NCBI GenBank assembly: GCA_025353105.1
Contig: JANXRG010000081.1
Location: 1 to 64,000 of the forward strand
Source of the DNA: Verrucomicrobiota bacterium
GTDB lineage: Bacteria > Verrucomicrobiota > Verrucomicrobiia > Chthoniobacterales > SZAS-18
DNA: 64,000 nucleotides
Direction of reading: 5' to 3'
The notes under the pieces were generated by a model. It worked only from the letters and a program-made list of their open reading frames with translations, was not told the origin of the DNA and made no database searches. Position numbers and translations under genes: made by a program. How positions within the stretch are numbered: position 1 is the first letter of the stretch; every line of letters starts with the position of its first letter. Of the stretch, positions 21,468 through 42,376 are shown piece by piece.

Positions 21468-21543
21468 GTCCCCGTAGCTTAACGGATAAAGCAACGGTCT
21501 TCTAAACCGTAGAGTGTTGGTTCGATTCCAACCGGGGACGCCA
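21468..21543 (+). tRNA. tRNA-Arg (anticodon TCT)
   Basis: Full cloverleaf: acceptor arms GTCCCCG at 21468-21474 and CGGGGAC at 21533-21539, anticodon stem ACGGT/ACCGT around the loop CTTCTAA giving anticodon TCT, T-arm GTTGG-TTCGATT-CCAAC, discriminator G and an encoded CCA at 21541-21543. Its 3' 44 bases recur at 42333-42376, which marks it as the attachment site of an inserted element. Confidence 0.95.
21499..21542 (+). repeat. Left attachment repeat (attL), inside tRNA-Arg
   Basis: 44 bases from CTTCTAAACCGTAGAGTG through the T-arm to CCGGGGACGCC. They match 42333-42376 at 42 positions. The two differences are at 21517 (T here, C there) and 21531 (A here, G there), which pair with each other in the T-stem. 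Confidence 0.8.
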
Positions 21544-21699
21544 CCCGGACGCACCGGGACTGCGCTACGGCTTCACTTCCGCCGGTGCCTGGCACGAGGC
21601 CGCAATGATCTACCATTCGCCGCCCGGCTCGCTGCGCTGCCAGACGTGCACAATCCCGGAAGCGGTGGTTGCCAGGGCTCCGTTTTCACAGACGAGCCG

Positions 21700-22310
21700 G
21701 CCGTGGCGCCGACGCCGGAGCCGGACATGGCGCGCCGATATCGAACGCAACCTGCCACGTCCCGTCGGGCTGCTGGCGTGCACGCGCTCGCCGCGCGCGG
21801 CGCGACCGCGCAGGCGGGTCAGAGGTTGGTCTTCGCGCCCGACTCGTCGAGGAAGACCAGTCTGGCGGGGTCGAAGCTTACTTACCGTAGCCGCCACGAG
21901 CGGCGCGCCCGCGCGATGTCCGAACGGTCTTGTTCGCTGGCGCGGAGTGTCTTTCTTTATATGTCAGCCCCATCTTTCTGGAGCGCGTAGTGGCTGGCGG
22001 GAAGGGAGCACTTCAGAGCCACCGCCTCTCGCGGTTCCCTGAGCGTCAGGTCAGGCTTCTGGCCGAGCAGCGCGAGCATCTTTCGACAATGGGCCACGAG
22101 GATGAGCGGCTTGCGCCCGGAGCGATGATAGCGTGCCCCGATGTCTCCGGTGTGCCGGCGCTGCGGCAAAAGCTTCTTCTCCATGCCCAAGGACACCCGA
22201 AAGCGCTGCGCCACCTCCTGCCGGCTGCCCTCTTGTTGGTCGTAAGAATCCAAGATCCGTTCGCGCAAGTCCAAGGAGAGCGTTCGCACGGCCAGCACTC
22301 TGCCACAACG
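21700..22310 (-). pseudogene. IS630-family transposase remnant
   Basis: Reading the minus strand from about 22298, SLDLRERILDSYDQQEGSRQ and 'VAQRFRVSLGMEKKLL', 'RHTGDIGARYHRSGRKP' are the N-terminal helix-turn-helix region of IS630 transposases. After a frame change come TLRASEQDRSDIARARRSWR (about 21895-21960) and then 'VFLDESGAKTN' and 'LRGRAARGERVHASSPTG', the start of the DDE region. Several frameshifts break the gene and the C-terminal catalytic part is missing. No clear terminal inverted repeats could be set. The boundaries are approximate. The sequence between the tRNA end (21544) and 21700 shows no gene. Confidence 0.8.
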
Positions 22311-22529
22311 CGCGCCTGTCGGCTACATTACTAATTAAAACGCTTTAGCGGCTATCGGGCGCTGTCTGCCAACGCGGCGGGCGGTCATCCACCCAAGCGT
22401 GCTCGACCATTTCAACGCGCCGATGGCGCGATAAACTCGTACCACTCATCGCTTACACACCGTTTTGCTAACTCAATAAACGAGTTTTTTGTTTTGACAA
22501 AATTTGGGCCATCCGCCAAACCCCCTTCG

Positions 22530-23399
22530 ATGAAAATCGCGTATGTTTCCCGCGGATTGGGCTCGCGGCTGCTTGGCCCCTTTCTCTTGCTGGGGTTAAT
22601 CGTAGGCGTTTTCGCTCGAGCGGCGGATGAGACCCCGCCCGACATGACTTTCGACCCCAGGAAAATGGGGAAGGCGGCCGATGAGCAGGTCATTGTGAGT
22701 CCTTACGACCGGTTCATTGCCCTAGATGCCCTGTTGGCGGGCAAGAAAATTGATTGGCGAGGATATTTTTTGAAAACGGGCGTGGATGCCCCCAATCCAC
22801 TCCCGTCCGATCAGGAAGTCCTCCTCCCACTCTTGATGGGCCTTCGCGTCACGGACGGCGTCATGGCGGTCAAGGCTCGGGACGCGGAGTTGCTCAATCG
22901 TGCGGCCGCCGATATCGAAAAGATCGCCAAAAAGCTCGGGGCGACCGACGACGATCTGAAAAGTGCGCGCGAGGCCCGGACGGCGGCGAACGCGGGCGAA
23001 TGGCCGAAAGTCTTTCTCAAGTTGGGTTACCTGCAGAAAGAGATCATGGGTTTGATCGACAAGAAAGATAACAAGTCCCGCGGCACTCTTATTCTGATCG
23101 GTGGGTGGCTGCAGGGAGCCCGCTATGTGACCAGTTTGATCAAGGACAACTACACTCCGCAGGCTTCAAACTACCTGCGCGAACCCGTTCTGGTGAGGGC
23201 GTTGATCGAGCAGCTCGATAACTTGCCGGAGCCCCAGCGCTCGTCACCCATTATCCCGAAGCTCAAGGCGTCCCTCAACGGCCTCTTGGGTATCATCGAC
23301 ATCACGCTCGACGGTAGTATCCCCGTCGATCAGATCGATAAGGCCAATGCGCTGGCGACTGACATCGTCAAGATTTGTGTGACCCCTGACAAACCATGA
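22530..23399 (+). CDS. Exported protein of unknown function
   Basis: About 289 residues from the ATG at 22530, opening with a basic segment and a hydrophobic stretch (LLGPFLLLGLIVGVFARA) that acts as signal peptide. The mature part is mainly helical with repeated Lys/Asp-rich helices (RAAADIEKIAKKLGATDDDL, LKLGYLQKEIMGLIDKKDNK) and the segment GTLILIGGWLQGARYVTSLI. I recognise no family or catalytic motif. It is the first intact gene of the island, and its stop overlaps the next start by four bases (ATGA), so they are translationally coupled. Probably periplasmic. It may be a sensor-side partner of the kinases, but only the neighbourhood suggests that. Confidence 0.75.
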   Translation: MKIAYVSRGLGSRLLGPFLLLGLIVGVFARAADETPPDMTFDPRKMGKAADEQVIVSPYDRFIALDALLAGKKIDWRGYFLKTGVDAPNPLPSDQEVLLPLLMGLRVTDGVMAVKARDAELLNRAAADIEKIAKKLGATDDDLKSAREARTAANAGEWPKVFLKLGYLQKEIMGLIDKKDNKSRGTLILIGGWLQGARYVTSLIKDNYTPQASNYLREPVLVRALIEQLDNLPEPQRSSPIIPKLKASLNGLLGIIDITLDGSIPVDQIDKANALATDIVKICVTPDKP

Positions 23400-23935
23400 A
23401 CAGCCAAAATTCCACCCTGACGGCCGCACGCCAGAATCGGCGCCGCGAAAAGGCCCTAATCGCTCTACTCATCGCGGCCATCGCGATGCTTCCGTTGCCG
23501 GTCAGAGCGGACATGGTGAAAGCCGAGGACATCGCTTACCGCATGGCCACATCCTACGTGGCAAAGAGCTTCAATCTCTCGCCGACGATGCAGAGCAGCA
23601 TCCTGAGCGGAGGCCAGTTCGTGCGTTATACCATCCCCGTGGCGCGGGGTGTTGACTACGTGATTTTGGTCGGAACCGACGACGCGGTCGTTAACACGGG
23701 AATCTATGTTTACGACGAGGTCGGCGGCCTGATTCTCGACGATATCCGGGGAAAGAGCCGAGCGGGCGTCCAATTCCGTTCGAGCTATACGGGCAGTGTC
23801 TACGCCTATGTTTATGCTGCGAGAGTCCGGGGTGCATTCGGTGCTCTCGCCGTGCTGGTCGGACGCCGGGGCTCGGAAAGGCAGGGAAGTATCTTCCCCG
23901 AAAATCCGAACCCGGGACCGAAGAGCGATCCGTGA
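23396..23935 (+). CDS. Exported beta-rich protein of unknown function
   Basis: 179 residues. A basic N-terminus (ARQNRRREKALIALLIAAIA) leads into a signal peptide ending near VRA (about residue 38). The mature part alternates beta strands (GGQFVRYTIPVARGVDYVIL, GIYVYDEVGGLIL, GVQFRSSYTGSVYAYVYAAR), a layout like small pre-peptidase C-terminal or jelly-roll domains, although I see no calcium-binding motif. Its start overlaps the stop of the previous gene. The following small lipoprotein gene also begins almost at once, so the four genes 22530-25097 look like one operon. Function unknown. Confidence 0.75.
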   Translation: MNSQNSTLTAARQNRRREKALIALLIAAIAMLPLPVRADMVKAEDIAYRMATSYVAKSFNLSPTMQSSILSGGQFVRYTIPVARGVDYVILVGTDDAVVNTGIYVYDEVGGLILDDIRGKSRAGVQFRSSYTGSVYAYVYAARVRGAFGALAVLVGRRGSERQGSIFPENPNPGPKSDP

Positions 23936-23982
23936 TGTTGGAAGCGCACGAGAAGTTTCTTAATCGACCGTTAAATTCCAAA

Positions 23983-24156
23983 ATGAACGCATCCCTACTA
24001 CGCCCTATTTGCCTTGCAATCGCGACCAGCTTACTTGCATCGTGCGCCGAGCCCCCACCCCCACCCCCACCCGTCAAGAGGGCCGTTGTTAAGAAACAAA
24101 CGCCCGAAGACTTCCGGGCGGTCGAAAAGCCATCGACCTACTCAGGTGGACGTTAG
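23983..24156 (+). CDS. Small proline-rich lipoprotein
   Basis: About 57 residues. The signal peptide ends in the lipobox LASC with Cys21. Immediately after comes a run of seven prolines, then a Lys/Arg-rich segment (VKRAVVKKQTPEDFRAVEKP). The ATG at 23983 was chosen over an earlier in-frame ATG at 23932, because it places the hydrophobic helix directly at the N-terminus. It resembles entericidin-like or tether lipoproteins only in size. The rest is too short for a family call. Confidence 0.6.
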   Translation: MNASLLRPICLAIATSLLASCAEPPPPPPPVKRAVVKKQTPEDFRAVEKPSTYSGGR

Positions 24157-24251
24157 CGTCGGGCCGGTCCGAAGCCTCGGCTGAAACGAGTCGGCGCACC
24201 GCGCCGGCAAACGGCGGGGCTGGCGTTAAGAGTTCGAATCTGGGTCGATTC

Positions 24252-25097
24252 ATGAATATGCCTGCGCACCACCGGCGTTGGGTTGTTGAACGTATTGTCG
24301 CGCCGTTTCTCGGCGTCTTGTTATTTCTCCCGGCCTGCTCCGGGCCGGACCCCGGCCTGCAGGAGCAATTGGCCCGAGTTCAGTCGGAGTTACAGCAGGC
24401 AAATGCGCGATTGCAGGAGAGGACGGCCGAGCTGGAACGCATCAACGGAAATATCGGTGCCGCGGCGTCAACTCCGCGAACCTCCGCGGAGGCCGCTGCC
24501 GGCGTTGGCGAGGTCCAAACTAAGGGTGAGGCCGCCGCGCGTGGACTGGCTGCGCAGTTCGCGGCGGCCCAACCCGAACTGACGGCCGTGGACATTTACT
24601 TGGGGCCCGTCCGGACTTCTTCCGCCCCGCTGATCTTTATTTCGGAGCTGGTGGTTTCGCTGCGCCGGTCCGATGGCACCTCCCTGCGCCAGACTCAATT
24701 GGTAGCGGCTGACGCGGCGGGAAACTGGGTCATGCCCACGGTGCCCGAGTTGGCTGCCCTGGCCCAGGCGACCCGCACCGACAGCACCGTTCGCCAACGC
24801 CCATCGAGCCCGCCCTCTTCCGCGGGAACGGAGCAGCGGCCAAATTCCACGGGCATGAAGGATCCGAGCAAGTCAGGCGTATTTGAATGGGGTCCCACGT
24901 CTCCGAGCAGCTCCAGTCAGGATCCGGCAGCCGCGGCCGGCCGGCGCGAACCAGTGCCGCCGACGAAAGCACCGGTCGGTCCCGGCGCGGGAGGCGGTCC
25001 GCCAGGGGCGGCAAAGTCGGGATCATTTAGTTGGTCGGGGGATGCTCCCGCCGCGCCCACGGGAACTCCGGCCGGTGGGGTCCGGCCGCGCGAATAG
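24252..25097 (+). CDS. Lipoprotein with coiled coil and disordered tail
   Basis: 281 residues. The signal peptide ends in LPAC (Cys29), a likely lipidation site. Residues about 33-65 form a coiled coil (QEQLARVQSELQQANARLQE and on). A compact domain follows at about 95-175, with AVDIYLGPVRTSSAPLIFIS and 'LVVSLRRSDGTSLRQTQLVAAD'. The last 100 residues are low-complexity Pro/Ser/Gly/Ala with two similar short motifs (KSGVFEWGPTSPS and KSGSFSWSGDAPA). The repeated KSGxFxW motif could be a docking peptide. No family recognised. It precedes the first kinase gene by 307 bases and may be its envelope partner. Confidence 0.75.
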   Translation: MNMPAHHRRWVVERIVAPFLGVLLFLPACSGPDPGLQEQLARVQSELQQANARLQERTAELERINGNIGAAASTPRTSAEAAAGVGEVQTKGEAAARGLAAQFAAAQPELTAVDIYLGPVRTSSAPLIFISELVVSLRRSDGTSLRQTQLVAADAAGNWVMPTVPELAALAQATRTDSTVRQRPSSPPSSAGTEQRPNSTGMKDPSKSGVFEWGPTSPSSSSQDPAAAAGRREPVPPTKAPVGPGAGGGPPGAAKSGSFSWSGDAPAAPTGTPAGGVRPRE

Positions 25098-25404
25098 ACT
25101 TCGCCGTCGGCGGTTCCCCGCGTTCCGGGTGGCGCGGGGATTTCCTCGCCGCAAGTTCGCCCGACGCCGATCCTGCCGCTCCGGTCCGGCGTGGCGGTTA
25201 GGGTCTTCCTCCCGCGAAGCAGCCGTTTGATCCCTTCATCCGCACGCTGGGATCCATTCAGCGAATGCGGAATCGTTCCGCCGGCGGCCAACCCCTCGAA
25301 GTCGATCGAGCATTGCCAGGCGCGGAAAAGACCTTCCCCCTTGATGTTTCCGCCGGCGTTTGCATTATCCGGGCGGGCGGCCCAAGTGCGGACGCTCCAC
25401 CCGT
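25098..25404. other. Intergenic region before the first kinase gene
   Basis: This 307-base gap has no convincing gene. At about 25114-25137 a 7-base-pair stem CCCCGCG/CGCGGGG with a 10-base loop is not followed by a T-run, so it is only a weak terminator candidate. A poor promoter-like pair TTGATG (25341-25346) and TTATCC (25365-25370), 18 bases apart, precedes the kinase start by about 35 bases. Confidence 0.3.
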
Positions 25405-28400
25405 ATGCCAAGCGATCGAGAGGAATTACGATTCGGCAACTACGAGCTTCGCACTCTCGCCGACGGACAACCTCACCTGCTGGGGAAGGGGACATTCGGT
25501 TCCACGTACAAGGGATGTCACATCTACTTGGGCGAGGAAGTCGCCATCAAAGTGATCAATGCGCGCTACATTTCGGACACCAATGCCAAGGAGCGATTCC
25601 TGCGTGAGGCACGCGTCCTTCACGCCATCCGGCACCCGAATATCGCCCGGGTGCTCGACTTCGGTGAGGTCAGCGCCGGCATGTATTTTGTGCTGGAATT
25701 TTGTGGCGGCGGCAGCCTGAAGGATTTGGCCGAGCGGGTGGGCCCGGTGCCTCCCTCGGATGTCTTCACGATTGCCCGGCAGTGCGCGTCCGCCCTCGGG
25801 ATGGCCCATCGATCCAACTTCATTCACCGCGATATCAAGCCGGCCAACATCATGCTCGCCCGGCCGGGGCCAGAGCTTGACATCAAGCTCATCGATTTTG
25901 GTCTCGTCAAGATCATGAATCCCGAGGGCGAAGGGGCGGCGCAGTTCCAGACGCTTCACACCCAGGGCTTGTTCACGCCCTACTACGCGAGTCCCGAGCA
26001 GATCCGCGAGGAGACGCTCGATGCCCGGACCGATCTTTTCTCGCTGGGCATGTCCCTGCTTTACCTGTTGGTCGGGGGTCTGCCCGAGCGGGGTGCGGGC
26101 GCCACCATCATCGCCAGCCGCCTTGGACCAAAATCCTACGATCACCTGATCCCGGACCAAGTTCCGCCGTCGGCCCGGCAGATCTTGTCCCGCCTGCTGG
26201 CGAAGGAGCGGGACGAACGCTTCGCGTCCGCCGACGAGCTGATGCAGGCGCTCGACAGTTTGGCGGGCGAGTTCGCGATTGAGCTCCCGACGATCATTTC
26301 GTCCGACTTGTCGCCCACCCAACCCCTGGTCGGCGCGCATGGCGGATCGGACTCGGGCGAGGGCGGGGTGGCCACCGAGTCGGCGTCGCCCCCGATTCCC
26401 ACCGTGGCGGAGATGTATGAGATTGGGACGCGCCGCATCGCGCATCCCCTGGGCAGTTTCTGCGATGCCAGGCGTTGCGGAAGCGGGGAGTCGTGCGCGC
26501 TGCTTTTTGTGGATGCGGATCACCTGCTCGACGCAGTCCGCTTGGGCGAAATCAATCACGCGGTCGCGCGGCTTGTGGAATGTGTCCACCCGGCCATCGC
26601 CGCCCCGCGGGCGCTGGAAACCCTGCGGGACGCCACGGTCATTCCGTTCGCGCCATTTTTCGGAATGGACCTTCTGTCGATCTTGAAATTACGGAAGTCG
26701 TTTCGTCTGGCGGACGTCGTCCCCATCGTGCGGCAAATCGCCGAGGCGATTGATCACGCGGAGGAGCACGAGCTGGGTCCGCTGCGGGTCACGCTCGGGG
26801 AAATCTTCATGCGCGGGAAATCGGGCGGCGAATTCGCCGGCACGAATGAAATTCTTGCCGTCATGCCGGTCGCGCGCTGGCCTGAGTTCCAAAGCACTCT
26901 GCTGCCCGGCCTGGTCCGCCTGGAGCTGAGTGAATTGATCGCAGATTCGGGTGCCACCATGCAGGCCAGCGCAGACGGCGAAGGTCGCGCCAACGTTGAA
27001 TTTGCGGCCTTGATTTATCAATTCGTCTCGGGTCGCACGCCCCCGTTTGCCGCGCGGGTGTCGCGTTCCGCCTACACCGCCGTCTCGAGCATTTCCGAGG
27101 CCTCGAATCGCCTGCTGGCCTCAACGATATGCGGCGAGATCGACCAGCCGTGTCAAACGCTCCTGGATCGGCTCGTCGCGGAGGAAGGCATCGGTCCTTC
27201 GCCCGCCCGGCCGACGCTGCCGGTCACGGCCACGCAACCGGGCGGGTTAAGCGCGACCGGGACTTCGCGTCCCGTGACGGGGACCGGCGCGTCCCGTCCG
27301 TTGACGGCGACCGGTTCCTCCTCAACTTCATTGCCCAAGCCGCCTGGCGTTCTTCCGACGGCGCCTCAGCCGGCGACCAGTTCCGGTCCGGTCCCGCCGG
27401 TTTCCCCGAGCGTTCGGCCCGCGACGCAACGAGCACCCGAAGTGCCGGCCCCGGAATCGTTACGCGGCTCGCCGAAGGATCCTGAGGCCGCGTCCGAAAC
27501 CATGGTTGCCGGTCTTGACGATTCGTTCCCGCCGCCTGCGCCGCCCGCTCCGAAAGCCGCCGCTCCGCCGCCGCCGCCGCCGGCCCCGCCGGTCAGGCCG
27601 CCGACCATCTCGGCGCCGCGCCGCGTGGACGTTCCTTCGATTCCATCGCGTGCAGTCCCGCCGCCTGCGGCTTCTCCGCCGGTCGCCCCGCGCGTTGACG
27701 TGCCCGCCGCCGCGCCTCGACCGGATGTCACACTTCCACCGGCGGCGACAGCGAGAGCGAAAGAAGCGCCGACGGCCGACGTTCCGGCCCGGGGCGGACG
27801 CGGATTGCTTGTCGGCGTGGGGGCGCTCGTCATCGTCGGCGCGATCGTCGGACTCGTGATTTTCAAACGCGGGCAGACCAAGCCCGCCGAAAATCCCCCG
27901 ACCATCGCAGCCGCCACGCCCGCTCCCGTCGCTCCGACCCTCTCGCCATCGATCGCACCCGCCACCGCGCCCGTCGTCGCCCGCGCCACGCCGATTCCGC
28001 CCCCCGCGGCGCCCCCGCCGGTCATGGTGGCCCGGGATTACTTTTTTTCTCAAGGGGTCCGGCCCGCGGGTGCGCGGTTCACGCTGAATGGCCGGCCGGT
28101 CGAAGCCCGGGTGAGCGGGAATGGAATGGTCGTGCCTCTCGAAAACGCAGAACCTCCGGTGCGCATTGGCGTTTCGGCCCCCGGTTTTGTCGCGGCCGAG
28201 GTCAAACCCACCTCCTTGGAATCCTTGCGGATGGACAACCGCCTTGACCTCGTGCGGGCCACCGGGACCGTCCACGTCGCAAAAAGCGCACCCGCCAGCG
28301 ATTATGATTCGTTGGTTCTCAAAATGGTTCAGCCACTCAGCGACGAAGCGCGTTTCGTCGTCCTCGATCCGACGGAAATCGACGTGCCAATTTCCGGCGA

Positions 28401-28974
28401 TGGCCGGGAGTTTGAGCGCCGGGTCCCGACCGGAATTTACAATGTGACCGTCCGGGCCAAGGCCAATCCAAAAATTGCTCCGCTGGCAATCGCAACCGCC
28501 GTTCCCATCGAGGTCAGGCGCGAGACAAAGTTGTCCGTCCCCCCAAGCTGGGCCGGCTCGTTCAAATACGAATATTCACCCGTTGGGGGGGTCACGATCA
28601 AACGTGAGATCGTCATTCAGCCTGGGTTGCGCCCGGCCGTCGTGCGAGATACTCCGGTCATCCAGGGCGTGCAAAAACCGACGGTGGAATATGCCTGTGA
28701 CATCGTTTCGCTCAGCGACGCGGGCGTTCTCTCCGGCGTCATCCGGGTGAGCCTGCAGGATGAAAGTATCCGGTACTGGGACGCGTGTTTTGAGTTGCGG
28801 CGGGACGAGCGCAATCAACTGCAGGTGGCCTGGGGCTGGGAGGCATCGCCTGAACGACCCGAAGAAGCGTCCCGGATCCGGGCGGCGTTGAAAAAGCGAT
28901 ATCCCAAGGGAATTCCCTCCCCCCAAACGGACCGGGCGCTGGCCAAGACGTCTCCGCTCGAGCGGATTCCGTAA
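25405..28974 (+). CDS. Receptor-type Ser/Thr kinase with second kinase-like domain
   Basis: About 1189 residues from the ATG at 25405. Residues 12-290 form a Hanks-type kinase: glycine loop LGKGTFGSTYKG, Lys49, Glu68, HRDIKPANIM (His141-Asp143), DFG at 164-166 and YYASPEQ; all catalytic residues are present. Residues about 340-592 look like a second, degenerate kinase fold with no HRD or DFG. A Pro/Ala-rich linker (600-795), a transmembrane helix (about 800-820) and a 365-residue extracytoplasmic beta-rich domain follow. The domain order and the activation-loop sequence REETLDARTDLFSLGMSLL are shared with the kinase at 34379. It should sense an envelope signal and phosphorylate cytoplasmic targets, possibly the FHA-ABC protein. 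No PP2C phosphatase gene is close by. Confidence 0.9.
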   Translation: MPSDREELRFGNYELRTLADGQPHLLGKGTFGSTYKGCHIYLGEEVAIKVINARYISDTNAKERFLREARVLHAIRHPNIARVLDFGEVSAGMYFVLEFCGGGSLKDLAERVGPVPPSDVFTIARQCASALGMAHRSNFIHRDIKPANIMLARPGPELDIKLIDFGLVKIMNPEGEGAAQFQTLHTQGLFTPYYASPEQIREETLDARTDLFSLGMSLLYLLVGGLPERGAGATIIASRLGPKSYDHLIPDQVPPSARQILSRLLAKERDERFASADELMQALDSLAGEFAIELPTIISSDLSPTQPLVGAHGGSDSGEGGVATESASPPIPTVAEMYEIGTRRIAHPLGSFCDARRCGSGESCALLFVDADHLLDAVRLGEINHAVARLVECVHPAIAAPRALETLRDATVIPFAPFFGMDLLSILKLRKSFRLADVVPIVRQIAEAIDHAEEHELGPLRVTLGEIFMRGKSGGEFAGTNEILAVMPVARWPEFQSTLLPGLVRLELSELIADSGATMQASADGEGRANVEFAALIYQFVSGRTPPFAARVSRSAYTAVSSISEASNRLLASTICGEIDQPCQTLLDRLVAEEGIGPSPARPTLPVTATQPGGLSATGTSRPVTGTGASRPLTATGSSSTSLPKPPGVLPTAPQPATSSGPVPPVSPSVRPATQRAPEVPAPESLRGSPKDPEAASETMVAGLDDSFPPPAPPAPKAAAPPPPPPAPPVRPPTISAPRRVDVPSIPSRAVPPPAASPPVAPRVDVPAAAPRPDVTLPPAATARAKEAPTADVPARGGRGLLVGVGALVIVGAIVGLVIFKRGQTKPAENPPTIAAATPAPVAPTLSPSIAPATAPVVARATPIPPPAAPPPVMVARDYFFSQGVRPAGARFTLNGRPVEARVSGNGMVVPLENAEPPVRIGVSAPGFVAAEVKPTSLESLRMDNRLDLVRATGTVHVAKSAPASDYDSLVLKMVQPLSDEARFVVLDPTEIDVPISGDGREFERRVPTGIYNVTVRAKANPKIAPLAIATAVPIEVRRETKLSVPPSWAGSFKYEYSPVGGVTIKREIVIQPGLRPAVVRDTPVIQGVQKPTVEYACDIVSLSDAGVLSGVIRVSLQDESIRYWDACFELRRDERNQLQVAWGWEASPERPEEASRIRAALKKRYPKGIPSPQTDRALAKTSPLERIP

Positions 28975-29000
28975 TCCATGAGAGGCACCAGAATTTCTGG

Positions 29001-29035: not shown

Positions 29036-29051
29036 TCAACTTAGCCCTGCC

Positions 29052-30524
29052 ATGCCACTTATCCAAATGTCTCTCAAGGAAATCTCCTTCACCCGGTCAC
29101 GTCGAAGCGTCCTTCCGCTCTCGATTGCGTTGCTTTTTGCGGCCGCGATGCTCCTGCCCGTTGCCGAACTGTCGGCCCAAGATTACAGCTCGTCGGCTTA
29201 CACCATGCAACCGGTCCTCCCGCGCGCGACCGTCACGGCCGAGCCCGTCAACGCACCCCTTTTCGGCGGAGCCGCGAGAACCTACAGCGCCGAGACGCCC
29301 TCCGAGTCCCGCCCGGAGCGTAGGCGATCGGCCTCGACGACTACTTCAACGAGCGCCGCCGTTGCCGACGCCAAGAGCGTGCCTAAGGATGTGGTCAAGC
29401 TGGTCGCACCCAGCCGGCCAATTTTCACCCTCTCCGCGGGCTACCAGACCACCTATGTTTACCACGGTCTCGACGTGATCGGTGCCAACAGCAGCGTGGC
29501 GAACATCGAACGGACGATTGACCCGTTCTACGCCGACGCAACGTTTTTGCCTGCGGGCAGGGTGACAAGTGTAATAAATGGTCTGACCAGCGGCAAGCTG
29601 ACGTCCGACATTGCCTTTGTCACGGGTGGACTCGACTGGCAGGGTTTCCACCTTTCGCTGGGATTTACGCGGGCGCTGCAGAGCACCGTACCGTATCGAA
29701 CGACCCTGGCGTTTCTACAGAGCGGTCTGACGTTACAGAGTCCCTACAATAGCTTTTTTCGGGGCAGACAAACGCCGCCGCCCTTGAAGGAAGATAACTA
29801 CCAAGAGGTAACCATTGGCCTGAATTATACCTACGCGCTCACGCCGGCGCTCAGCGCCACGATCGGATTCAACAACTTCATCCTTCCTGTAAAGGCATTT
29901 CGCAATACGAATTATCTGGGCGAGGGGCTCATTCGCCTCACCTACGCGCCAGGATATTTTCCCTACATCAAGGCCACGCTGAGCTACTATCGATATTTCT
30001 CCGGCGCGAGGGTGCCGCAGTTGCAGTCCAACGTCCTGGACGTCTTCTTTGTCGACGGCCCGGGGACCCAAGCGGCTAATCAAAACCAATCGTTGGCGAA
30101 CGGCCCGCAATATCTGAACGGTGGTTACGCCGATCTGCGAATTGATGGCGACATTCCCATCGCGAAGTCAGGCCGTTTCAGCCTCCGCTTTCAGCCGTAT
30201 GTGCTGGTCTCCTACAACAACGGATTTTTTTCCCGCCTGACGACGGCATCCCCGATCGCGAGCGGACAGTTTAACCGAGCTATCGCTTTGGGCGGCGGCC
30301 TTGTGAACTATGTGTCAAACAATGGAATCCGGCGCGACACCTTCAATACGTTTGAAGTCGGCGCCCAGCTTCGCTTTGCCTACGGAAAGCTCTCGGTCAC
30401 GCCTTCCGTCAACTATGGCGTCGACATTTCGCAGAATGGCGACACGAACAGCTTCAGCAATAATGGGAATGCGGGTCAGCGAAAGAACGTCTGGGGCGGG
30501 GTAGTCGTGGGATACTCATTCTAA
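29052..30524 (+). CDS. Outer-membrane beta-barrel protein
   Basis: 490 residues. The signal peptide is RSVLPLSIALLFAAAMLLPV ending near residue 42 (ELSA-QDY). A Ser/Thr/Arg-rich stretch follows to about residue 110. After that come many alternating strands with aromatic girdles, for example FTLSAGYQTTYVYHGLDVIG, VTIGLNYTYALTPALSATIG and PYIKATLSYYRYFSG. The last residue is Phe in VVVGYSF, the classical barrel-insertion signal. It has no TonB box or plug. The family is not recognised. The gene is flanked by a promoter-like site and a strong terminator, so it is its own transcription unit within the island. It could be a channel or exit duct for something handled by the adjacent ABC transporter; that is inference. 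Confidence 0.85.
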   Translation: MPLIQMSLKEISFTRSRRSVLPLSIALLFAAAMLLPVAELSAQDYSSSAYTMQPVLPRATVTAEPVNAPLFGGAARTYSAETPSESRPERRRSASTTTSTSAAVADAKSVPKDVVKLVAPSRPIFTLSAGYQTTYVYHGLDVIGANSSVANIERTIDPFYADATFLPAGRVTSVINGLTSGKLTSDIAFVTGGLDWQGFHLSLGFTRALQSTVPYRTTLAFLQSGLTLQSPYNSFFRGRQTPPPLKEDNYQEVTIGLNYTYALTPALSATIGFNNFILPVKAFRNTNYLGEGLIRLTYAPGYFPYIKATLSYYRYFSGARVPQLQSNVLDVFFVDGPGTQAANQNQSLANGPQYLNGGYADLRIDGDIPIAKSGRFSLRFQPYVLVSYNNGFFSRLTTASPIASGQFNRAIALGGGLVNYVSNNGIRRDTFNTFEVGAQLRFAYGKLSVTPSVNYGVDISQNGDTNSFSNNGNAGQRKNVWGGVVVGYSF

Positions 30525-30558
30525 AACACCGTTCGCCGCGAAACCCATCCGTATCAAA

Positions 30559-33756: not shown

Positions 33757-33774
33757 CCGCGCTAACTTCGCCGC

Positions 33775-34215
33775 ATGTTGCCACGAATCCTTGCCGGTCT
33801 GGCGGCCGTGTTGTGCTTCGGCAGTACCGTTCTGCCTTGGGTTTCGATGCCGGGCCTTGGTGATTTTGGTTTTCGCGACCTCGGGGCGTCGCAACGGGCG
33901 CTGGCCGCCGCCTCGGCGGGTGTCGCGGCGATTTTTTATCTGCTGGGCTGGCGTCGGATGGGCTTTGCCAGTCTCTGCCTGTTTGCCCTCGTGGCCCTCG
34001 TCAGCTTGGCCCAAACCGTGATGATGCTGAGGGAAATGGCCCCGATGTTTCCGCCGGGTGCCACTGCCGGCGCAGAACCACTTTGGCGCAAGATTCTCCA
34101 CGCGTCGCAATTTCGCAGCGGGGCGATCCTGGCCCTCGCAGGATTGTCGATTTGGGTTTTCACATTTTTCTACGGACCCCGCGCCTCGCCCGCGATCGTC
34201 AAGCCGACCCACTAA
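33775..34215 (+). CDS. Small four-helix membrane protein
   Basis: 146 residues with four hydrophobic helices (about 2-20, 40-60, 62-85, 117-136). No family recognised. It begins 18 bases after the FHA-ABC stop, so it is probably co-translated and may be a subunit or regulator of that transporter. The loop between helices 3 and 4 (MAPMFPPGATAGAEPLWRK) is short and probably lies outside the membrane. Confidence 0.8.
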   Translation: MLPRILAGLAAVLCFGSTVLPWVSMPGLGDFGFRDLGASQRALAAASAGVAAIFYLLGWRRMGFASLCLFALVALVSLAQTVMMLREMAPMFPPGATAGAEPLWRKILHASQFRSGAILALAGLSIWVFTFFYGPRASPAIVKPTH

Positions 34216-34378: not shown

Positions 34379-37300
34379 ATGCCGGCTCTCCGATACGGCA
34401 ATTACGAAGTACTCGAAGGGCCTGACGGCAAGCCATGGACGCTTGGGACAGGCGGCTTCGGCTGTACTTATAAGGCCCGGCATCGGTATTTGGATAAGCC
34501 GGTGGCTTTGAAGGTGATTAGCGAGGCCCTTCTCGACGACGGGGACGCGACCGCTCGCTTCCTGCGGGAAGCGCAGGTGGTGCATAAGCTGGTGCACCCG
34601 AATATTGCCCACGTCGATGACTTCGGCGAACTGGACGGGACGCTCTACTATGCGATGGAATTTTGCGAGGGGGGCGATCTCGTCCAATGGCGCAAGAGCG
34701 CCGGCGCTTCGGTGCCGCTAGAGGACGTCGCGGCGTGCGCGAGGCAGACCGCGGCCGCCCTCCGCTGCGCTCATGACGCCGGCTGGGTGCACCGGGACGT
34801 GAAACCCGGGAACATCATGCTGGCGACTCGGGAGCCGCCCGTGATGTTCAAACTCGTCGATTTCGGCCTGGTGAAATCATCCGTGCCGCGCGACCCGAAA
34901 GCGGGTGGTGCGGTGACGATGGACGGCCGGCATTTTTTCACGGTCGCGTACGCCAGCCCGGAGCAACTGCGCGAGGAAACGCTCGACGGTCGGACGGACA
35001 TTTTTTCGCTGGGCATGACGCTGTGGTTTCTGCTCCTGGGCATCGACCCGGAAGATGGCGCGCTGGGGCGCGTGATTGCGCGGCGCCTGGGGCCGGAATC
35101 CTATGTTGATCAACTGCCAACGCACATTGGAGAGAGTTTCCGATCCCTCCTGGCCTGGATGCTCGAGAAGGAGCGCGACCAGCGCTGCGCGAGCGCCGCG
35201 GATCTGCTGGCGGCGCTCGATCATCTTAAATTGCCGGATCCGACGGAGTATCAAAGCGCCGTCCAGGGCTGGAGCCCTTCCGCCGCGCCGCCGACTGAAA
35301 GCATCTATACAAATTTTGAATTGCACGAAGCGGGCGCGACGACCACGGAATTGGGACCGCTGTTTGAAGGGGTGGATCGCCGGACGAACCAGCCGGTTGC
35401 GGTGACATTTCTGAATGAGGAATTTGTCGCCAATCAGGTTCGGATGGCGGAGGTGAGGAATACCACCAGCCTGCTTAGGTCCAACGTCCACCCGTCGCTC
35501 CTCGGGGTGCTGGCCTTTGAGCATTATTCGGAGGGTTGGGCGATTGTGCGCGAACGAGCCAACGGGGTGAAGCTGAGGCAAGTGCTGAAATCCAACGGAG
35601 TGGTTTCTTTCCGGGACGCGCTGCGGGTCCTGAGTCCGCTGGCGGAAACCTTGGATTTTGTGGATCGGCTCAAGGCGCCGGGTCTTGCGCTTTCCGCCGA
35701 TGACATCGTCGTGGAGCCCGCGCGAAGTCCCGTGACGGAGGTCGAGCTGGCCGCTCTGGCCCGAACGCCGGTTCGGTCGTGGCCTCCGATCAACTTGCGG
35801 GTGCAACCGTTGTTGTACGCCAAGTCGGAACCGGCTTCTCCCCGCGGCACTACGCAGTTGCCGCAGGCGGGTTCTGACTCCCGGGTGGAATTCTCCAGCC
35901 TACTCTACCGGCTCGTCTCGGGTCGCCCGGCCCCGGCCGCCGCCCGCCAGGCAAGTACGGCGTACTTGCCGATTGCCGGCCTTTCCGAGAACGGCAACCG
36001 GAGACTTGCGGCGGGACTCGCGAATCAAACCGACACGAATTCGTGCCTGGAACTCCTCCGGTCAATTTGCGCGACGGAGGGGGTGGACGAAGACGAAGCC
36101 GGCGCGCCGACGGCCCCAGCACCGGCATTGCCGTCGGTTCGGTCGGAGCGTCCCCCGACCGACGATGTCGAGGCCACGTTAAATCTGGATCGGGAAGCGA
36201 TCGCACCACGGACCGGCGCCGGTCGAGCTGCCGAAACGGTTCCCGCCGCGTCGCCGAAACGGTCAGAAGGCATTGTCCCAACCCTCTCTCGAAACGTGCC
36301 ACCGGAACCGGTGAAGGCGCGAACCGGACCAGCTCCGCTTCTGGTCCCGACAACGACGACCGCCCCACGAGTGGCGCCGCAGGCTTCGCCGAAGGTGGAA
36401 CCGCCCGCCCAAACGCCGAGTCCGCCCCCACCCGCGGCGAAGATCCCAAATCCGCCGGCCGGCGCCGCCCCGCCCCTCTCGCCAACTTCAGCGCCACAGG
36501 CCGCCGTAGTTCTTGGCCGGGAAACCATGACCCAAGAGGCGAATCCCCGACGGAACCAGCTGCTGCTTGCGGCGGCCGGGGTCGTCCTGCTTGCGGCTGG
36601 CGCGGGGATTTGGCACTGGACGAAAGGCAACGCAGCCGCCAAGAGCGACGCCCCATCGGAGCTGGCGCCCGCGGCGCCCCCGCCGATTGTAAGCCTCGCG
36701 CCGGCGCCGGCGCCGACCGCGCGCCCCCTGGCAATTCCAACTCCGCTTTCGATCCCGACCCCGCCTCCGGTTGCCGTCAATCTCTCCCTTCCCTACGCTA
36801 GGATTCCCAGTAACGCGACATTCGTTTTGGGCGATACGCCAGTCTTGCCAAGCAAAGCAAATGGCGCTCACCGACTCGAGATCCAACCCGCGGATTTCAA
36901 CAAAACACTTACGATTAGCGCCCCCGGCTACGGACCTTACATCGTAGATAAGTTGGCGACGCTGCGAGAGTCCGAAATCAAATCAATGACGCGTGAAACC
37001 GGAACGCTGCTCATCTCGTCGGCCGATGGACGAATATCCGATTATTCTCGACTTAAGATTGTGTGGAAGTCCGCGTTCCCCGCTGGCACCGAACGGCAAC
37101 CGTCTGAAGTCAACGAGCAGATTGAGGAGATCGCCCGTCTCGAAGGTACGTCCATCAAGGAAATTAAGTTGCCCACCGGCGAATATGAGTTGGTTGCAAT
37201 GGGGGGCGAAGGCGATGGAAAATCGATCAAACCGCGCATTCTGTCTCCCGGCACGGGACCAACGCAGATCCGCACGGGTCCATTAAAAATCTCAATTCCG

Positions 37301-37678
37301 CCGTCGTTCTCCGGGATATATGATCTTCGTCAGGAACTGCCGGGCGCAAAAGGATCCTATCGATTATTTGAGCTGAGTATCCCCAAGATCTCCACCGGCG
37401 GAACAATGCGTCAAACGGACTACCTCGCAGACGGGAGCAAGGTGCGGACGATCAGCTTCACGATTTTCAGCATGGAAATGGGTGCGGACGGCAAGCTGCA
37501 GGCGAAGGTAGAATCGACGAAGGCAGAGCCGGCGATTCGAAAGAAACTTGAATTTAGGGCCCAGTTTTCCATTGAAGAAGGCAAGCTGCGTTGCGAAAGC
37601 GTTCCGGGAGAGCTCGAAAAGAATAGGTTTAGATTCGACCTAAGCCGATCGGCCTCGGGAGACACGGGCAAAAAGTAG
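34379..37678 (+). CDS. Receptor-type Ser/Thr kinase with second kinase-like domain
   Basis: 1099 residues. Kinase domain at about 9-285: LGTGGFGCTYKA, Lys45, HRDVKPGNIM (138-147), DFG at 161-163, then AYASPEQ. A second kinase-like domain spans about 311-566: a P-loop-like LGPLFEGVDRRTNQPVAVTF with no catalytic Lys, HPSLLGVLAFEHYSEGWAIV at the hinge, a catalytic-loop position reading GLALSADDIVVEP instead of HRD, and LLYRLVSG as the F-helix. A Pro-rich linker, one transmembrane helix (about 725-748) and a C-terminal extracytoplasmic domain follow, distantly like that of the kinase at 25405. The next kinase gene begins 11 bases after its stop, so the two are co-expressed. Confidence 0.9.
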   Translation: MPALRYGNYEVLEGPDGKPWTLGTGGFGCTYKARHRYLDKPVALKVISEALLDDGDATARFLREAQVVHKLVHPNIAHVDDFGELDGTLYYAMEFCEGGDLVQWRKSAGASVPLEDVAACARQTAAALRCAHDAGWVHRDVKPGNIMLATREPPVMFKLVDFGLVKSSVPRDPKAGGAVTMDGRHFFTVAYASPEQLREETLDGRTDIFSLGMTLWFLLLGIDPEDGALGRVIARRLGPESYVDQLPTHIGESFRSLLAWMLEKERDQRCASAADLLAALDHLKLPDPTEYQSAVQGWSPSAAPPTESIYTNFELHEAGATTTELGPLFEGVDRRTNQPVAVTFLNEEFVANQVRMAEVRNTTSLLRSNVHPSLLGVLAFEHYSEGWAIVRERANGVKLRQVLKSNGVVSFRDALRVLSPLAETLDFVDRLKAPGLALSADDIVVEPARSPVTEVELAALARTPVRSWPPINLRVQPLLYAKSEPASPRGTTQLPQAGSDSRVEFSSLLYRLVSGRPAPAAARQASTAYLPIAGLSENGNRRLAAGLANQTDTNSCLELLRSICATEGVDEDEAGAPTAPAPALPSVRSERPPTDDVEATLNLDREAIAPRTGAGRAAETVPAASPKRSEGIVPTLSRNVPPEPVKARTGPAPLLVPTTTTAPRVAPQASPKVEPPAQTPSPPPPAAKIPNPPAGAAPPLSPTSAPQAAVVLGRETMTQEANPRRNQLLLAAAGVVLLAAGAGIWHWTKGNAAAKSDAPSELAPAAPPPIVSLAPAPAPTARPLAIPTPLSIPTPPPVAVNLSLPYARIPSNATFVLGDTPVLPSKANGAHRLEIQPADFNKTLTISAPGYGPYIVDKLATLRESEIKSMTRETGTLLISSADGRISDYSRLKIVWKSAFPAGTERQPSEVNEQIEEIARLEGTSIKEIKLPTGEYELVAMGGEGDGKSIKPRILSPGTGPTQIRTGPLKISIPPSFSGIYDLRQELPGAKGSYRLFELSIPKISTGGTMRQTDYLADGSKVRTISFTIFSMEMGADGKLQAKVESTKAEPAIRKKLEFRAQFSIEEGKLRCESVPGELEKNRFRFDLSRSASGDTGKK

Positions 37679-37689
37679 GTCTCCGCCCC

Positions 37690-40600
37690 ATGGAAACGCC
37701 CCTTTTCTTTGACCACTACGAGGTGCAGCGGAATGCGGATGGCTCGCTGCACGAGTTGGGGCGTGGCGCGATGGGCGTGACGTACAAGGCCACGGACACA
37801 AAGCTGCGGATCGACGTCGTCCTGAAGTTGATTCACCCCGAACTCCTGCGCCAGGAACGCGTCCTGAAGCTCTTCGTGCGCGAGGCGCGCGCGGCCGCCA
37901 AGCTGCGGCACCCGAACATTGCGGCGGTGATCAGCCTGCATGACGAGGAGCCCTTTTATTACACGATGGAGTTCGTGAATGGCAGCACACTTAGTGCGTT
38001 GCTTAAGCAGCGCGGGGGCACTCTGCCCATTCCGGAGGCGCTGGAATATTGCGATCAAGTGGCGGCCGCTCTCGGCGTGATGGCCCGGGAGCACATCGTC
38101 CACCGGGACTTGAAACCCGCCAATCTCATGCTCGTGCCCGAGGATGAGCACCCTTTCGGACATCGCGTAAAAGTGATCGACTTCGGGCTGGCCAAGGGAT
38201 TCCGGATCGAAGGCGAGAATCTCGATTCCTATCTCGATAGCAGCCGATCGCTGAGCGTCTTTACCGGCACACCCTATTATGCCAGCCCGGAGCAATGCGC
38301 GACATCTGGAGACCTGGATACGCGGTCCGATTTGTATTCGCTCGGAATTGTTCTGTGGGAAATGCTCTGCGGTCAACGGCCGTTTGTCGGACAGCTCGGC
38401 CAGGTCCTGGCCATGCATCAGTTTAAGGAGCTTCCGTGGGAACAACTGGTTAACGTTCCACAACCGGTGCTCGATTTGCTTGGCGCGATGTTGGCAAAGG
38501 AGCGCGCCCAGCGGATTCAGACTCCGCGCGAGCTCTCGGACGCCATCACCCGATGCTCAACCCAATTGGGAATTAGCTTCGACCGCAATCGGAAAGCGGA
38601 AAGTTCCGACAGCGGAACGCGGTCAACCGTCGTGACGGTCGAGGAGCCCGCCACCCAGACGATTCGGCTGGGCACGACGTTGGCGGAGCGTTTCCGACTG
38701 GGCGAACAAATGGGGGAGGGCGATGGCGGGCAACTCTTCATGGCGGCGGATAACGCCGACGAGGGCGCGTTGGTCGGTTTGAAACTGCTGCACCGGACGC
38801 GGCTGGCCGACGTGGATCTGATGGGTCGACTGACGCGCGAGGTCGAAGCTCTGCGCATCCTGAAGAGCGCGGTGATGTTGCGTCCGGTCCTCGGACTGAC
38901 GTACTCCGGAAACACGGCTTTTTTTGTGCGCGAATGGGCCGACGGATTCTCGTTGCTGGATCTTTTGAAACACCGGGGACAACTTCTGCAGGAGGAAGTC
39001 TTCGTTCTCCTCGCCGGGCTCCCGGAAGCAATCGACCAAGCGAAAGCGAAGCGGCTTACCCTCGCCGAGCCGCTGTTGCGCAAGCTCTTCGTCACGCCGC
39101 CCCTCCAGCCTTCGAGCGACGAATGGTTGCGACTGCGGGATCAGCCGGTGATGGACTGGCCGGAATATTCGCTGCGTTGGAACGCGACAAGCTTCAGTCC
39201 GGCGATTGACGAGGACGATACGTTGATGACGCGGGCGAGGGAGTACACGGTCGACGCCGCCGCCGATCCCGTGATGGCCCTGGCCTTGCTCGTCCGTGAA
39301 TTGTTGGGTGGTCGCCCGCGCGCTCTGACACCCCTGCCGGCGCTTTCCGATGAAGCGAACCACGTGCTGAAGAAAGCGCTGGAAGCAAGGAATGGCGCGT
39401 CGCCTTACCCAACAGCCGCGGCTTTTTGGGATGCTCTCCGGTCACGCGACCGCTCGTCGCGCGCCGCCCCGCCCGCCCGCCCGGAGCCTCGTCCCGTCCG
39501 CGCGCCCGACAGCACCTTGGTTTCGCTTCCGAGCGCGCCGCAAGGGTCGGCGCAACCGCCGCGGGTTGAAACGCCCGCGCCATCCGTCATGCTCCCGGCG
39601 GGAGAATCAGAACATTCCGAAAGTCCGGGCCGGCGGCGCTTGATGATGATTGCGGCCGCCGCGGTTGTGGTGCTGGCTTCGGCTTTTGCGGTCAGCGCGC
39701 TTTTCCGAAATTCCCGACCGAATCCCGACGATTCAGGATCGACGGAAATCCCGAAGGCGGTGGCCGGCGATTCCCCCGCTCCGGAACCGGCCGCGCCTAG
39801 ACCACCCAAATCGGCGGACGTTGAATCGCGCGACGCGGTCCCGATTTCATCGTCTCCGGCGGTGGATTCGCCGGCGCCGAGTCGCGCGGCATTGCCGGCC
39901 GGCCAAGGCGAATCGACGCTCGCGCGCGCCATGCGCGACCAGGGCGAGTACGTCAACTCGCTCGGCATGCGCCTGCGCTTTGTGCCGCAGACGGGAGTCC
40001 TGTTCGGTGTCTGGGTCACGCGGCAGCGCGATTTCGCGGAGTTTGCGCGCGCGGTTGGCTTTGCGCCGAAAGGCGGCATGCTGACGCTCCCGAAAAGCGA
40101 TGAAACGACATTGGCCGTTGCCGAAGTGAAACCCGAGCTCGATGTGAAAGCGAGCTGGAGCAATCCGGGCTTCCCAACCGGATCTGACGATCCCGTGGTG
40201 GGGGTCAGCTGGGACGACGCCAAGGCCTTCTGCCGATGGCTGACGACGCGCGAGCGGGAGGCCGGCCGGATTCGCGAGCGCGACGCCTATCGGCTTCCCA
40301 CCGACGAGGAATGGACGCAAGTTGCCGGCGATCGAAAATATCCGTGGGGGGACGTATGGCCGCCGCCGCCGACGGCGGGAAACTATTTGGATAAAGCATT
40401 CGTCGAGGCGTTGCCGCAGTTTCGAGTGCAACCCGTTCCAATGAACGACGGGCAGGTCTTTCTTTCGCCGGTGGGCCGGTACAAACCGAACGCGTTCGCG
40501 CTTTACGACCTTGGCGGCAACGTTTGGGAGTGGTGCGAGGACGAATATCGAGCCCGCATGAACACCGCGGACGTGTTCAGCAGCTACCCTGATTACGCGC

Positions 40601-40770
40601 GGGATACCGACAGCGAGGGGCGGCGATTTCGGGTCCTGCGCGGTGGTTCCTGGATTACCAACGATTACATCACGCTGCGAACGGCGTTTCGGGGCCGCAA
40701 ACTGCCGGGCGTTCGCGCGTGCCACATCGGGTTTCGGGTCGTCCTCGCGCCCGAACCCACCCGTCGCTGA
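37690..40770 (+). CDS. Receptor-type Ser/Thr kinase ending in an FGE-like domain
   Basis: 1026 residues. Kinase domain at about 10-290: LGRGAMGVTYKA, Lys46, HRDLKPANLM (138-147), DFG at 164-166, GTPYYASPEQ. Residues about 326-583 form another kinase-like domain that keeps a glycine loop (MGEGDGGQLF) and a Lys (GLKLL, Lys365) but lacks HRD and DFG. A transmembrane helix lies at about 651-672. The extracytoplasmic end (about 755-1022) is a formylglycine-generating-enzyme/sulfatase-modifying domain: VGVSWDDAKAFCRWLT, RLPTDEEWT, LGGNVWEWCEDEY, RVLRGGSW. The two copper-binding cysteines of true FGE are both Thr here (W-I-T-N-D-Y-I-T), so it is probably a ligand-binding module. Chlamydial Pkn1 also combines kinase and FGE-like parts. 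Confidence 0.92.
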   Translation: METPLFFDHYEVQRNADGSLHELGRGAMGVTYKATDTKLRIDVVLKLIHPELLRQERVLKLFVREARAAAKLRHPNIAAVISLHDEEPFYYTMEFVNGSTLSALLKQRGGTLPIPEALEYCDQVAAALGVMAREHIVHRDLKPANLMLVPEDEHPFGHRVKVIDFGLAKGFRIEGENLDSYLDSSRSLSVFTGTPYYASPEQCATSGDLDTRSDLYSLGIVLWEMLCGQRPFVGQLGQVLAMHQFKELPWEQLVNVPQPVLDLLGAMLAKERAQRIQTPRELSDAITRCSTQLGISFDRNRKAESSDSGTRSTVVTVEEPATQTIRLGTTLAERFRLGEQMGEGDGGQLFMAADNADEGALVGLKLLHRTRLADVDLMGRLTREVEALRILKSAVMLRPVLGLTYSGNTAFFVREWADGFSLLDLLKHRGQLLQEEVFVLLAGLPEAIDQAKAKRLTLAEPLLRKLFVTPPLQPSSDEWLRLRDQPVMDWPEYSLRWNATSFSPAIDEDDTLMTRAREYTVDAAADPVMALALLVRELLGGRPRALTPLPALSDEANHVLKKALEARNGASPYPTAAAFWDALRSRDRSSRAAPPARPEPRPVRAPDSTLVSLPSAPQGSAQPPRVETPAPSVMLPAGESEHSESPGRRRLMMIAAAAVVVLASAFAVSALFRNSRPNPDDSGSTEIPKAVAGDSPAPEPAAPRPPKSADVESRDAVPISSSPAVDSPAPSRAALPAGQGESTLARAMRDQGEYVNSLGMRLRFVPQTGVLFGVWVTRQRDFAEFARAVGFAPKGGMLTLPKSDETTLAVAEVKPELDVKASWSNPGFPTGSDDPVVGVSWDDAKAFCRWLTTREREAGRIRERDAYRLPTDEEWTQVAGDRKYPWGDVWPPPPTAGNYLDKAFVEALPQFRVQPVPMNDGQVFLSPVGRYKPNAFALYDLGGNVWEWCEDEYRARMNTADVFSSYPDYARDTDSEGRRFRVLRGGSWITNDYITLRTAFRGRKLPGVRACHIGFRVVLAPEPTRR

Positions 40771-40788
40771 AAAACGAACGCCGGAGGT

Positions 40789-41880
40789 TCATCGATCGAC
40801 CCCGCGGGCGCCCGCGAGTGCTTGCGGGGGCTGGATCGATCCGTCCGCCACGATTTGGGCCGATGGGGCGCACACGACGCGGAAGCCTCCCTGCGAACTC
40901 CGGTCCCCCGGCAAGGCGGCGGACCGGTAATAAGATCGTGTGCAGCCGCGCCCGACCGTGAACCACGATCCTCCGCGCACGGTGCGGTATTTTTCTCCGT
41001 CGCCATCATTATTGATAATGGACAGGAGCGTCTCGCGATAAAACTTCTTGTTGTCCTTGTCGAATTTTCCAGCGTCGATTTCCTTGGTGAACTCGGAATT
41101 CATTTCCTTGCGATACCAATCCAAACACCATTCGGTCGCGTTGCCGCCCAGATCACAAATGCCATATTGATTCGGCTTGAAGGATGCCACCGGGGCGGTC
41201 CGCGCGTAGCCGTCCCAATACCCACGAATGGTTCCGAAGTTGTCGGGAAAGTTGCCGTCCCTGGCCTCGTCGCCGGTGTAGTTTCCGGCTCCCGACGGGA
41301 TGTAATTGTCATTTTCCCACGGGTAGAGCGCACTTCCGACCGCCGCGGACCACTCCGCGTCCGTGGGCAGGCGATATTCCCAACCCGATGGCAACCTCTC
41401 ACCCGCGCGTTCGCGGTTGGTCAGCCAGCGGCAAAAGGCGGAGGCGTCGAGCCAGCTTACGCCGACGACACAATTTTCCTCAGACTGCGCGAATCCCGGC
41501 TTTGCCCACGTGCCGCCCGCCTGCTTCCACCCCTGCCGTGTGAGGGTAAACATGGGCCGTCCGAACTCCTCGCTGCCGTAATCATACGGTCGCCCGATTG
41601 CGGGGTCGACCCAACGTCGATCTCCTACAAATGCTCGAAAATCGCGCACGCGTGTTTCCCAACGGCAGAAAAATACTCGCAGGGCTGGGACTGGAACGAA
41701 TTCCTGGCCCAACCCATTGGCGAAAGGACGAAGAGGCCGCCGTTCGGCGGCGACGGGAGATGTCTTACCTGCCTCTAGTTTGGAAAACTCCGGGTCATCG
41801 TTTCCGCTTGCGAATGCTGGATAATAAACACAAACAACAACTAACACCGCGAGGCAGTTTCGAGTTAATAAGTGCGTCAT
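40789..41880 (-). CDS. Secreted FGE/sulfatase-modifying-factor-like protein
   Basis: About 363 residues from the ATG at 41880; the signal peptide is LLTRNCLAVLVVVCVYYPAF with cleavage near FASG. Typical FGE blocks follow: VVGVSWLDASAFCRWLTNRE, YRLPTDAEWSAAVG, GICDLGGNATEWCLDWYRKE, YRTVRGGSW and GGFRVVC. In the active-site segment after RGGSW the first cysteine is Thr and the second (position +7, GCTRSYY) is kept, so copper-dependent formylglycine formation is unlikely. It may bind the same ligand type as the FGE-like end of the convergent kinase, whose stop is only 18 bases away. Upstream (41881-42332) I see no gene or clear promoter. Confidence 0.9.
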   Translation of the reverse strand: MTHLLTRNCLAVLVVVCVYYPAFASGNDDPEFSKLEAGKTSPVAAERRPLRPFANGLGQEFVPVPALRVFFCRWETRVRDFRAFVGDRRWVDPAIGRPYDYGSEEFGRPMFTLTRQGWKQAGGTWAKPGFAQSEENCVVGVSWLDASAFCRWLTNRERAGERLPSGWEYRLPTDAEWSAAVGSALYPWENDNYIPSGAGNYTGDEARDGNFPDNFGTIRGYWDGYARTAPVASFKPNQYGICDLGGNATEWCLDWYRKEMNSEFTKEIDAGKFDKDNKKFYRETLLSIINNDGDGEKYRTVRGGSWFTVGRGCTRSYYRSAALPGDRSSQGGFRVVCAPSAQIVADGSIQPPQALAGARGVDR

Positions 41881-42332
41881 GCGGGAATTCCCATGTCGTA
41901 TGGAAGGCTGGACCACGCCATTTTCTGCTCGTTGTTCGTCCAAGCTTGGTTCTCGTAATCCCGTATGTTGGCCGGGAGGTCCCGCGGGCGGCAAGGACAA
42001 ATCTGAGGCGCGGTACTGGACAACCCGGACGTTGGAATTCCGAAGGCAAATCGCATATTGCAGCTTCGCCCGACGAGTTGTCGTTTGGATTTGGAGAATA
42101 AGGGCGATTCAAATGGGTCAGCGTTTGTATACCTGATTTCGGAAGTCCGCCGCGCCTTGGCACGCCGTTTGGCATTCGAACGAAATTACGCAAAAAAGAG
42201 CGGCCCAAACTTCATCGCTTTTGTCAACCGTCCCTGGATGGTCACCAGATGATTGCGACTCTGTAATTCACCTCCTTCTTCGGGGCGACCAGACGCACAT
42301 TGCGAGCGTCCAACGCCAGCTGGGTGACGAGC
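41881..42332. other. Intergenic region between FGE-like gene and attR
   Basis: No supported gene in about 450 bases. Short open frames exist on both strands but lack a ribosome site, domain or codon bias. No integrase fragment could be read here in any frame. Confidence 0.4.
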
Positions 42333-42376
42333 TTCTAAACCGTAGAGTGCTGGTTCGATTCCAGCCGGGGACGCCG
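42333..42376 (+). repeat. Right attachment repeat (attR), displaced tRNA-Arg 3' end
   Basis: 44 bases running from the anticodon loop to the last acceptor bases (CCGGGGACGCC) of tRNA-Arg(TCT), without the 5' half. It is in the same orientation as the intact gene. The T-stem reads GCTGG/CCAGC, whereas the intact gene reads GTTGG/CCAAC; both pair fully. This fits a former functional tRNA end pushed aside by insertion. Confidence 0.85.

Follow-up and report, generated by a model that had tools for sequence, protein, structure and literature searches.

The locus examined here raises the question of whether a 20.8-kb interval, lying between an intact tRNA-Arg(TCT) gene and a second, partial copy of that gene, was inserted there as a genomic island, and how this could have happened to an interval that carries no integrase. 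The window, by which we mean the whole 64,000-nucleotide stretch analysed, comes from a bacterium of the order Chthoniobacterales; G000 denotes its own genome and C116 its contig. We consider it very probable that positions 21499-42375 are a genomic island which a tyrosine recombinase inserted at tRNA-Arg(TCT). This is a known kind of island, well bounded and fairly ordinary, and what is added is an orthologous case in another family (G138) with empty sites, together with the recurrence of the target.

Boundaries of the island

The left, attL-like boundary is an intact tRNA-Arg(TCT) gene with encoded CCA at 21468-21543 (+ strand), claimed in an earlier note on this DNA and also called by ARAGORN; it folds as a cloverleaf (z -2.75). 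At the right, attR-like boundary a genome search and a repeat finder agreed on a displaced 3' fragment at 42332-42375 (+), which corresponds to positions 32-75 of the tRNA at 95% in direct orientation and whose left counterpart is the 44-nt core at 21499-21542 (+). The earlier note had described the same fragment with the right identity (42/44) and orientation, one base too far to the right (42333-42376). The common block starts at base 1 of the anticodon loop (CTTCTAA) and stops at the 3' GCC. On both strands of the window the best other 44-nt match was 24/44, set against 44/44 for the tRNA itself and 41-42/44, by register, for the fragment, so that chance is excluded as the source of the match. 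Only two copies were found by genome search in the 3.72-Mb assembly, the third match being a different tRNA at 74%. No large ORF crosses the fragment, and the adjoining small ORFs had no meaningful Pfam matches. An exact-pattern search with the tRNA 3' end returned only G004 from the GTDB contig collection (JAFAXH010000052.1, a Verrucomicrobiota MAG) and nothing from viral contigs.

The two mismatches between the copies (T/C and A/G) fall on bases that pair with each other in the T-stem (gTTGGttcgattCCAAc vs gCTGGttcgattCCAGc), giving a T:A pair in the intact tRNA and a C:G pair in the fragment. Under simple decay, the chance that a second random change hits the partner base and re-forms the pair is approximately (1/43)x(1/3) = 0.8%, and it therefore appears, most simply, that both copies descend from working tRNA genes. 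The pair is C:G in the relatives G001 and G003 and T:A in G004; either form occurs in relatives, so that the pair does not single out a donor.

In every testable detail the insertion footprint that had been claimed holds: the ends fall at the anticodon loop and at the tRNA 3' terminus, the orientation is direct, and one fragment is displaced. The anticodon loop is a usual place of crossover (PMC8371274), and here too the crossover would have occurred in or near it. With the polarity that we infer, a replacement 3' half, probably supplied by the island, would have restored the tRNA at 21468-21543, while the host's original 3' half would have been pushed to 42332-42375. Segmental duplication or illegitimate recombination might instead have copied the tRNA end with no integrase involved, a reading with which the shortness of the repeat and the absence of an integrase are consistent. 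We regard such duplication as very unlikely, as the repeat begins exactly with the anticodon loop and stops exactly at the 3' end, with boundaries close to those of G035, G127, G013 and G140, and as a compensatory change of a base pair suggests two functional alleles and not a local copy.

Absence of an integrase and class of element

The earlier observation that no integrase is left was confirmed: PF00589 (Phage_integrase) had no match on contig C116, and tblastn of positions 21401-43400 with ten tyrosine integrases gave a best E of 0.13, which is chance level, with no integrase relic. Islands that target tRNA genes are recognized, in the published work on Islander, by a restored tRNA together with a displaced fragment (PMC4383910). 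As in those islands, a regenerated tRNA and a direct-orientation fragment, both on one contig and the fragment outside any conserved protein domain, mark the ends of an element whose size is within 2-200 kb; unlike them, since they need an integrase gene on the island, the window's island is without one. It is like a CIME (PMC5704250) in that attL-like and attR-like ends are kept at the level of sequence and that Pfam and PHROGs scans of its ORFs found no integration or transfer genes. CIMEs derive from, and are mobilised by, an ICE or IME, and no integrative element is adjacent here. Because the integrase is absent and both att-like ends are retained, we read it as a putative decayed or trans-mobilised tRNA-targeted island in a CIME-like state. 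The integrase may have been lost or may always have been supplied in trans; with one IS630 element decayed inside it, the island would resemble a cis-mobilizable element made up of two att sites and cargo only, which could be excised through a circle. Its precise ends lend themselves to excision tests, and its bounded gene set to joint study.

Two other classes were considered and rejected. No phage structural or replication genes were found by a phage-family scan of the unannotated ORFs or among the Pfam matches of the rest, which argues against a prophage. An anti-phage defence island was set aside as no complete known system was present; the PADLOC matches were to generic kinase/ATPase families and were equally strong for a kinase outside the island.

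Gene content

The cargo had been claimed to comprise kinases, an FHA-ABC transporter and envelope proteins, and this was borne out by three kinases of the Hanks type, a fused FHA-ABC protein and exported proteins. All but one of the main ORFs between the tRNA copies run in the tRNA direction, the exception being an FGE-like protein. Nearest the intact tRNA is an N-terminal remnant of an IS630-type transposase (21957-22298, -), with tblastn matches to plasmid-borne transposases, including the IS630 family (best E 4e-9 to 6e-7), and a weak HTH_38 match. It is followed on the + strand by env1 (22494-23399), an exported protein with a signal peptide recognized by eye, which matched no Pfam or NCBIfam family and of which 10 further genomes of the order have a close orthologue, and by env2 (23396-23935), an exported protein that accompanies env1 wherever the contig allows. 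A small lipoprotein-like ORF (23932-24156, +) has a homologue adjoining env2 in G002, and a further lipoprotein-like ORF (24252-25097, +) has a weak homologue in G006. Kinase A (25360-28974, +; a 1204-aa ORF, PF00069 5e-48) precedes a 490-aa protein with no assigned family (29052-30524, +), a homologue of which adjoins env1 in G006. The FHA-ABC exporter (30820-33756, +) joins three domains in one protein, namely FHA, ABC ATPase and ABC-2 membrane domain (PF00498, PF00005 and PF01061). Beyond it are a 146-aa protein with no assigned family (33775-34215, +), kinase B (34379-37678, +; PF00069 4e-44), kinase C with a C-terminal FGE-sulfatase-like domain (37690-40770, +; PF00069 2e-48, PF03781 4e-39) and the oppositely oriented FGE-sulfatase-like domain protein (40789-42000, -; PF03781 2e-32). 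Two more kinases related to kinase C (47%) are encoded elsewhere in the genome, at G000:C117:81263-84340 and G000:C85:3367-5835, and the former also matches the FGE-like domain of kinase C.

Judging from these domains, the island kinases may phosphorylate threonines that are read by the FHA domain of the ABC-2 transporter, and such reading could couple a cytoplasmic signal to the export or envelope placement of a substrate. The secreted env1 and env2 proteins would then be candidate partners or substrates of the FHA-ABC exporter.

Relatives in the window's own family examined for an empty site

The earlier note had proposed comparison with relatives sharing the esterase gene upstream of the tRNA. 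In the window's own family this gave no empty site and no collinear flanks; an empty slot was found for orthologous cargo, in congeners of G138. In six family relatives no tRNA-Arg follows the esterase, and an empty site for the window was not found among them. Upstream gene order, up to and including the esterase, is collinear in G003, G004, G005 and G006. The tRNA-Arg of G001, G003, G004 and G005 is located elsewhere than beside the esterase, and none was found in G002 or G006. On the right flank no orthologous region was present in the family contigs examined; SdhB was tried as an anchor and rejected, its matches at 25-30% identity not being orthologous. Just to the right of the fragment is a sigma-factor/TPR-kinase operon (43388-48294), for which a paired homologue (38% and 28%) occurs in G186 about 3 kb from a 5' fragment of tRNA-Arg(TCT) (G186:C22:70003-71913).

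Contig G005:C7 ends at 36394, inside tRNA-Arg(TCT) at position 46, as expected if the 3' half is repeated there too. The window's genome is represented by a single fragmented assembly, in which a mis-join is possible, and the break of a relative's contig in the same tRNA, like the esterase-tRNA adjacency not seen in relatives, would suit an artefact, namely a false joining of contigs through the 44-nt repeat of the tRNA end. Such an artefact is scarcely credible here: the copies have two base differences and unlike flanks, and the assembly contains no third. Moreover, a 44-nt repeat is shorter than an ordinary sequencing read.

An orthologous module at the same tRNA in another family

In G138, which belongs to another family, a 14.1-kb module encoding a cyclase/NB-ARC/TPR protein, FHA-ABC, env1, env2 and a kinase has an intact tRNA-Arg(TCT) on one side (C25:57577-57650) and, on the other, a second copy (C25:71669-71742), the first 62-65 nt of which match at 94-95% and the 3' end of which is broken. 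As in the window, an integrase is absent from the module. In the congeners G039, G137, G031 and G051 both sides are collinear and the slot holds only a short tRNA-bearing stretch, with one gene beside the slot missing or moved in G137 and G031; in G140 the collinear slot contains only a 1.9-kb remnant and a 3' fragment. Because the congeners are collinear across an empty slot, the G138 cargo is demonstrably an insertion relative to them. The isoacceptor of the tRNA involved is that of the window, and the empty site sought for the window thus exists for orthologous cargo. The displaced part is the 5' part of the tRNA in G138 and the 3' part in the window. This opposite polarity means that the two insertions arose by different kinds of integration.

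Distribution, composition and age of the module

Among 213 genomes of the order, distant env1 paralogues occur nearly everywhere, and a close orthologue is found in 11, the window's own genome included, at 36-52% identity and across five families. In most of the 10 other genomes env1, env2, FHA-ABC and a kinase are found together as far as the contigs reach, and the module is also present in three further genomes from other families or orders of the class. As this core recurs as a unit, it behaves as a module. In G164 it lies in a different context from that in G138, with kinase B at the opposite end; the kinase/FHA-ABC gene order is circularly permuted between the two genomes. Passage through a circle that was then opened elsewhere would be expected to give this placement of kinase B. 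No tRNA-like attP remnant was seen between the TPR and kinase genes of G164.

In both the FHA-ABC and the env1 trees sequences group by family. Transfer of the cargo between families was considered and is not supported, the gene trees following taxonomy, and this grouping speaks for an old module with frequent loss and local movement rather than for between-family transfer. Foreign origin was likewise not indicated by composition: in 4-mer composition and in GC the island does not depart from the range of its genome, for which approximately 120 kb from other contigs served as background. Any recent foreign origin implied by the earlier note is not supported by these results. The native-like composition and the taxonomy-like trees argue that the insertion is old or came from a near relative, and local mobility of an old module is likelier than recent foreign acquisition.

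Counting against insertion are the lack of an empty site for the window, the lack of an integrase or relic, the native composition, the trees that group by family and the opposite polarity in G138. Another possibility is that the tRNA fragment is the scar of an earlier integrase island that came and left or was largely replaced, the kinase and FHA-ABC genes being chromosomal and later rearranged into the site. The absent integrase, the native-like composition and the taxonomic trees are in keeping with this, and tRNA hot spots do gather remnants such as the 1.9-kb one in G140. However, the cargo leaves little of the interval unoccupied, and in G138, whose congeners have an empty slot, copies of tRNA-Arg(TCT) flank an orthologous module. 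We consider a scar unlikely and prefer integration of the cargo itself, an event which for the window's genome we infer.

tRNA-Arg(TCT) as an insertion hot spot

tRNA-Arg(TCT) is a recurrent insertion target in the order. In the family of G138, the same slot is occupied in G013 by a 27.8-kb island (G013:C23:97943-125830) that has a 378-aa tyrosine integrase next to the tRNA and ends, on the other side, in a 3' fragment; in G152 it is occupied by an 8.2-kb island with a 398-aa integrase (G152:C37:67972-76283). On G035:C35 a 436-aa tyrosine integrase abuts a tRNA-Arg(TCT) 3' fragment with boundaries nearly those of the window, the intact tRNA being on another contig. These three islands share the window's target and carry a tyrosine integrase, whereas the window's island does not; the displaced fragments of G013 and G035, like that of the window, extend from the anticodon stem-loop to the 3' end. 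Window-like cargo was not found in the G013 and G152 islands. This makes the tRNA a much-used insertion site in an order of bacteria that has been little studied; in two families a patchy signalling/export module of unassigned function is tied to it. We offer as a tentative and rather doubtful suggestion that the module, lacking its own integrase, may have moved repeatedly into tRNA-Arg(TCT) in Verrucomicrobiota by means of the integrases of unrelated resident islands sharing this target, with opposite polarities by lineage.

The G013 and G152 islands, with a 3' and a 5' fragment respectively, are integrase islands of opposite polarity in one slot in different genera of one family. According to a review, all but very few bacterial tRNA genes retain their original promoter on integration (PMC8371274), which makes a displaced 5' half unusual. 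In family f8, a tRNA-Arg(TCT) 5' half (positions 1 to ~40, ending in the anticodon loop), exact or nearly so, occurs in approximately 21 of 83 genomes, for example G193, G152, G186, G177, G187, G190, G184 and G185 (G185:C119:8115-8154). In the copies that were read, similar sequence follows the 5' half, mostly ending CTAGG. Where both lie on one contig in this family, the intact tRNA is 2.5-23.7 kb downstream of the 5' half, and in G152 the integrase adjoins the intact tRNA.

The window's own genome likely has a second tRNA island, at tRNA-Glu(CTC): on contig C61 an intact 456-aa tyrosine integrase ORF, a homologue of the G035 integrase, starts at the 3' end of this tRNA (G000:C61:42513-43946; locus coordinates 8513-8587 for the tRNA and 8579-9946 for the integrase).
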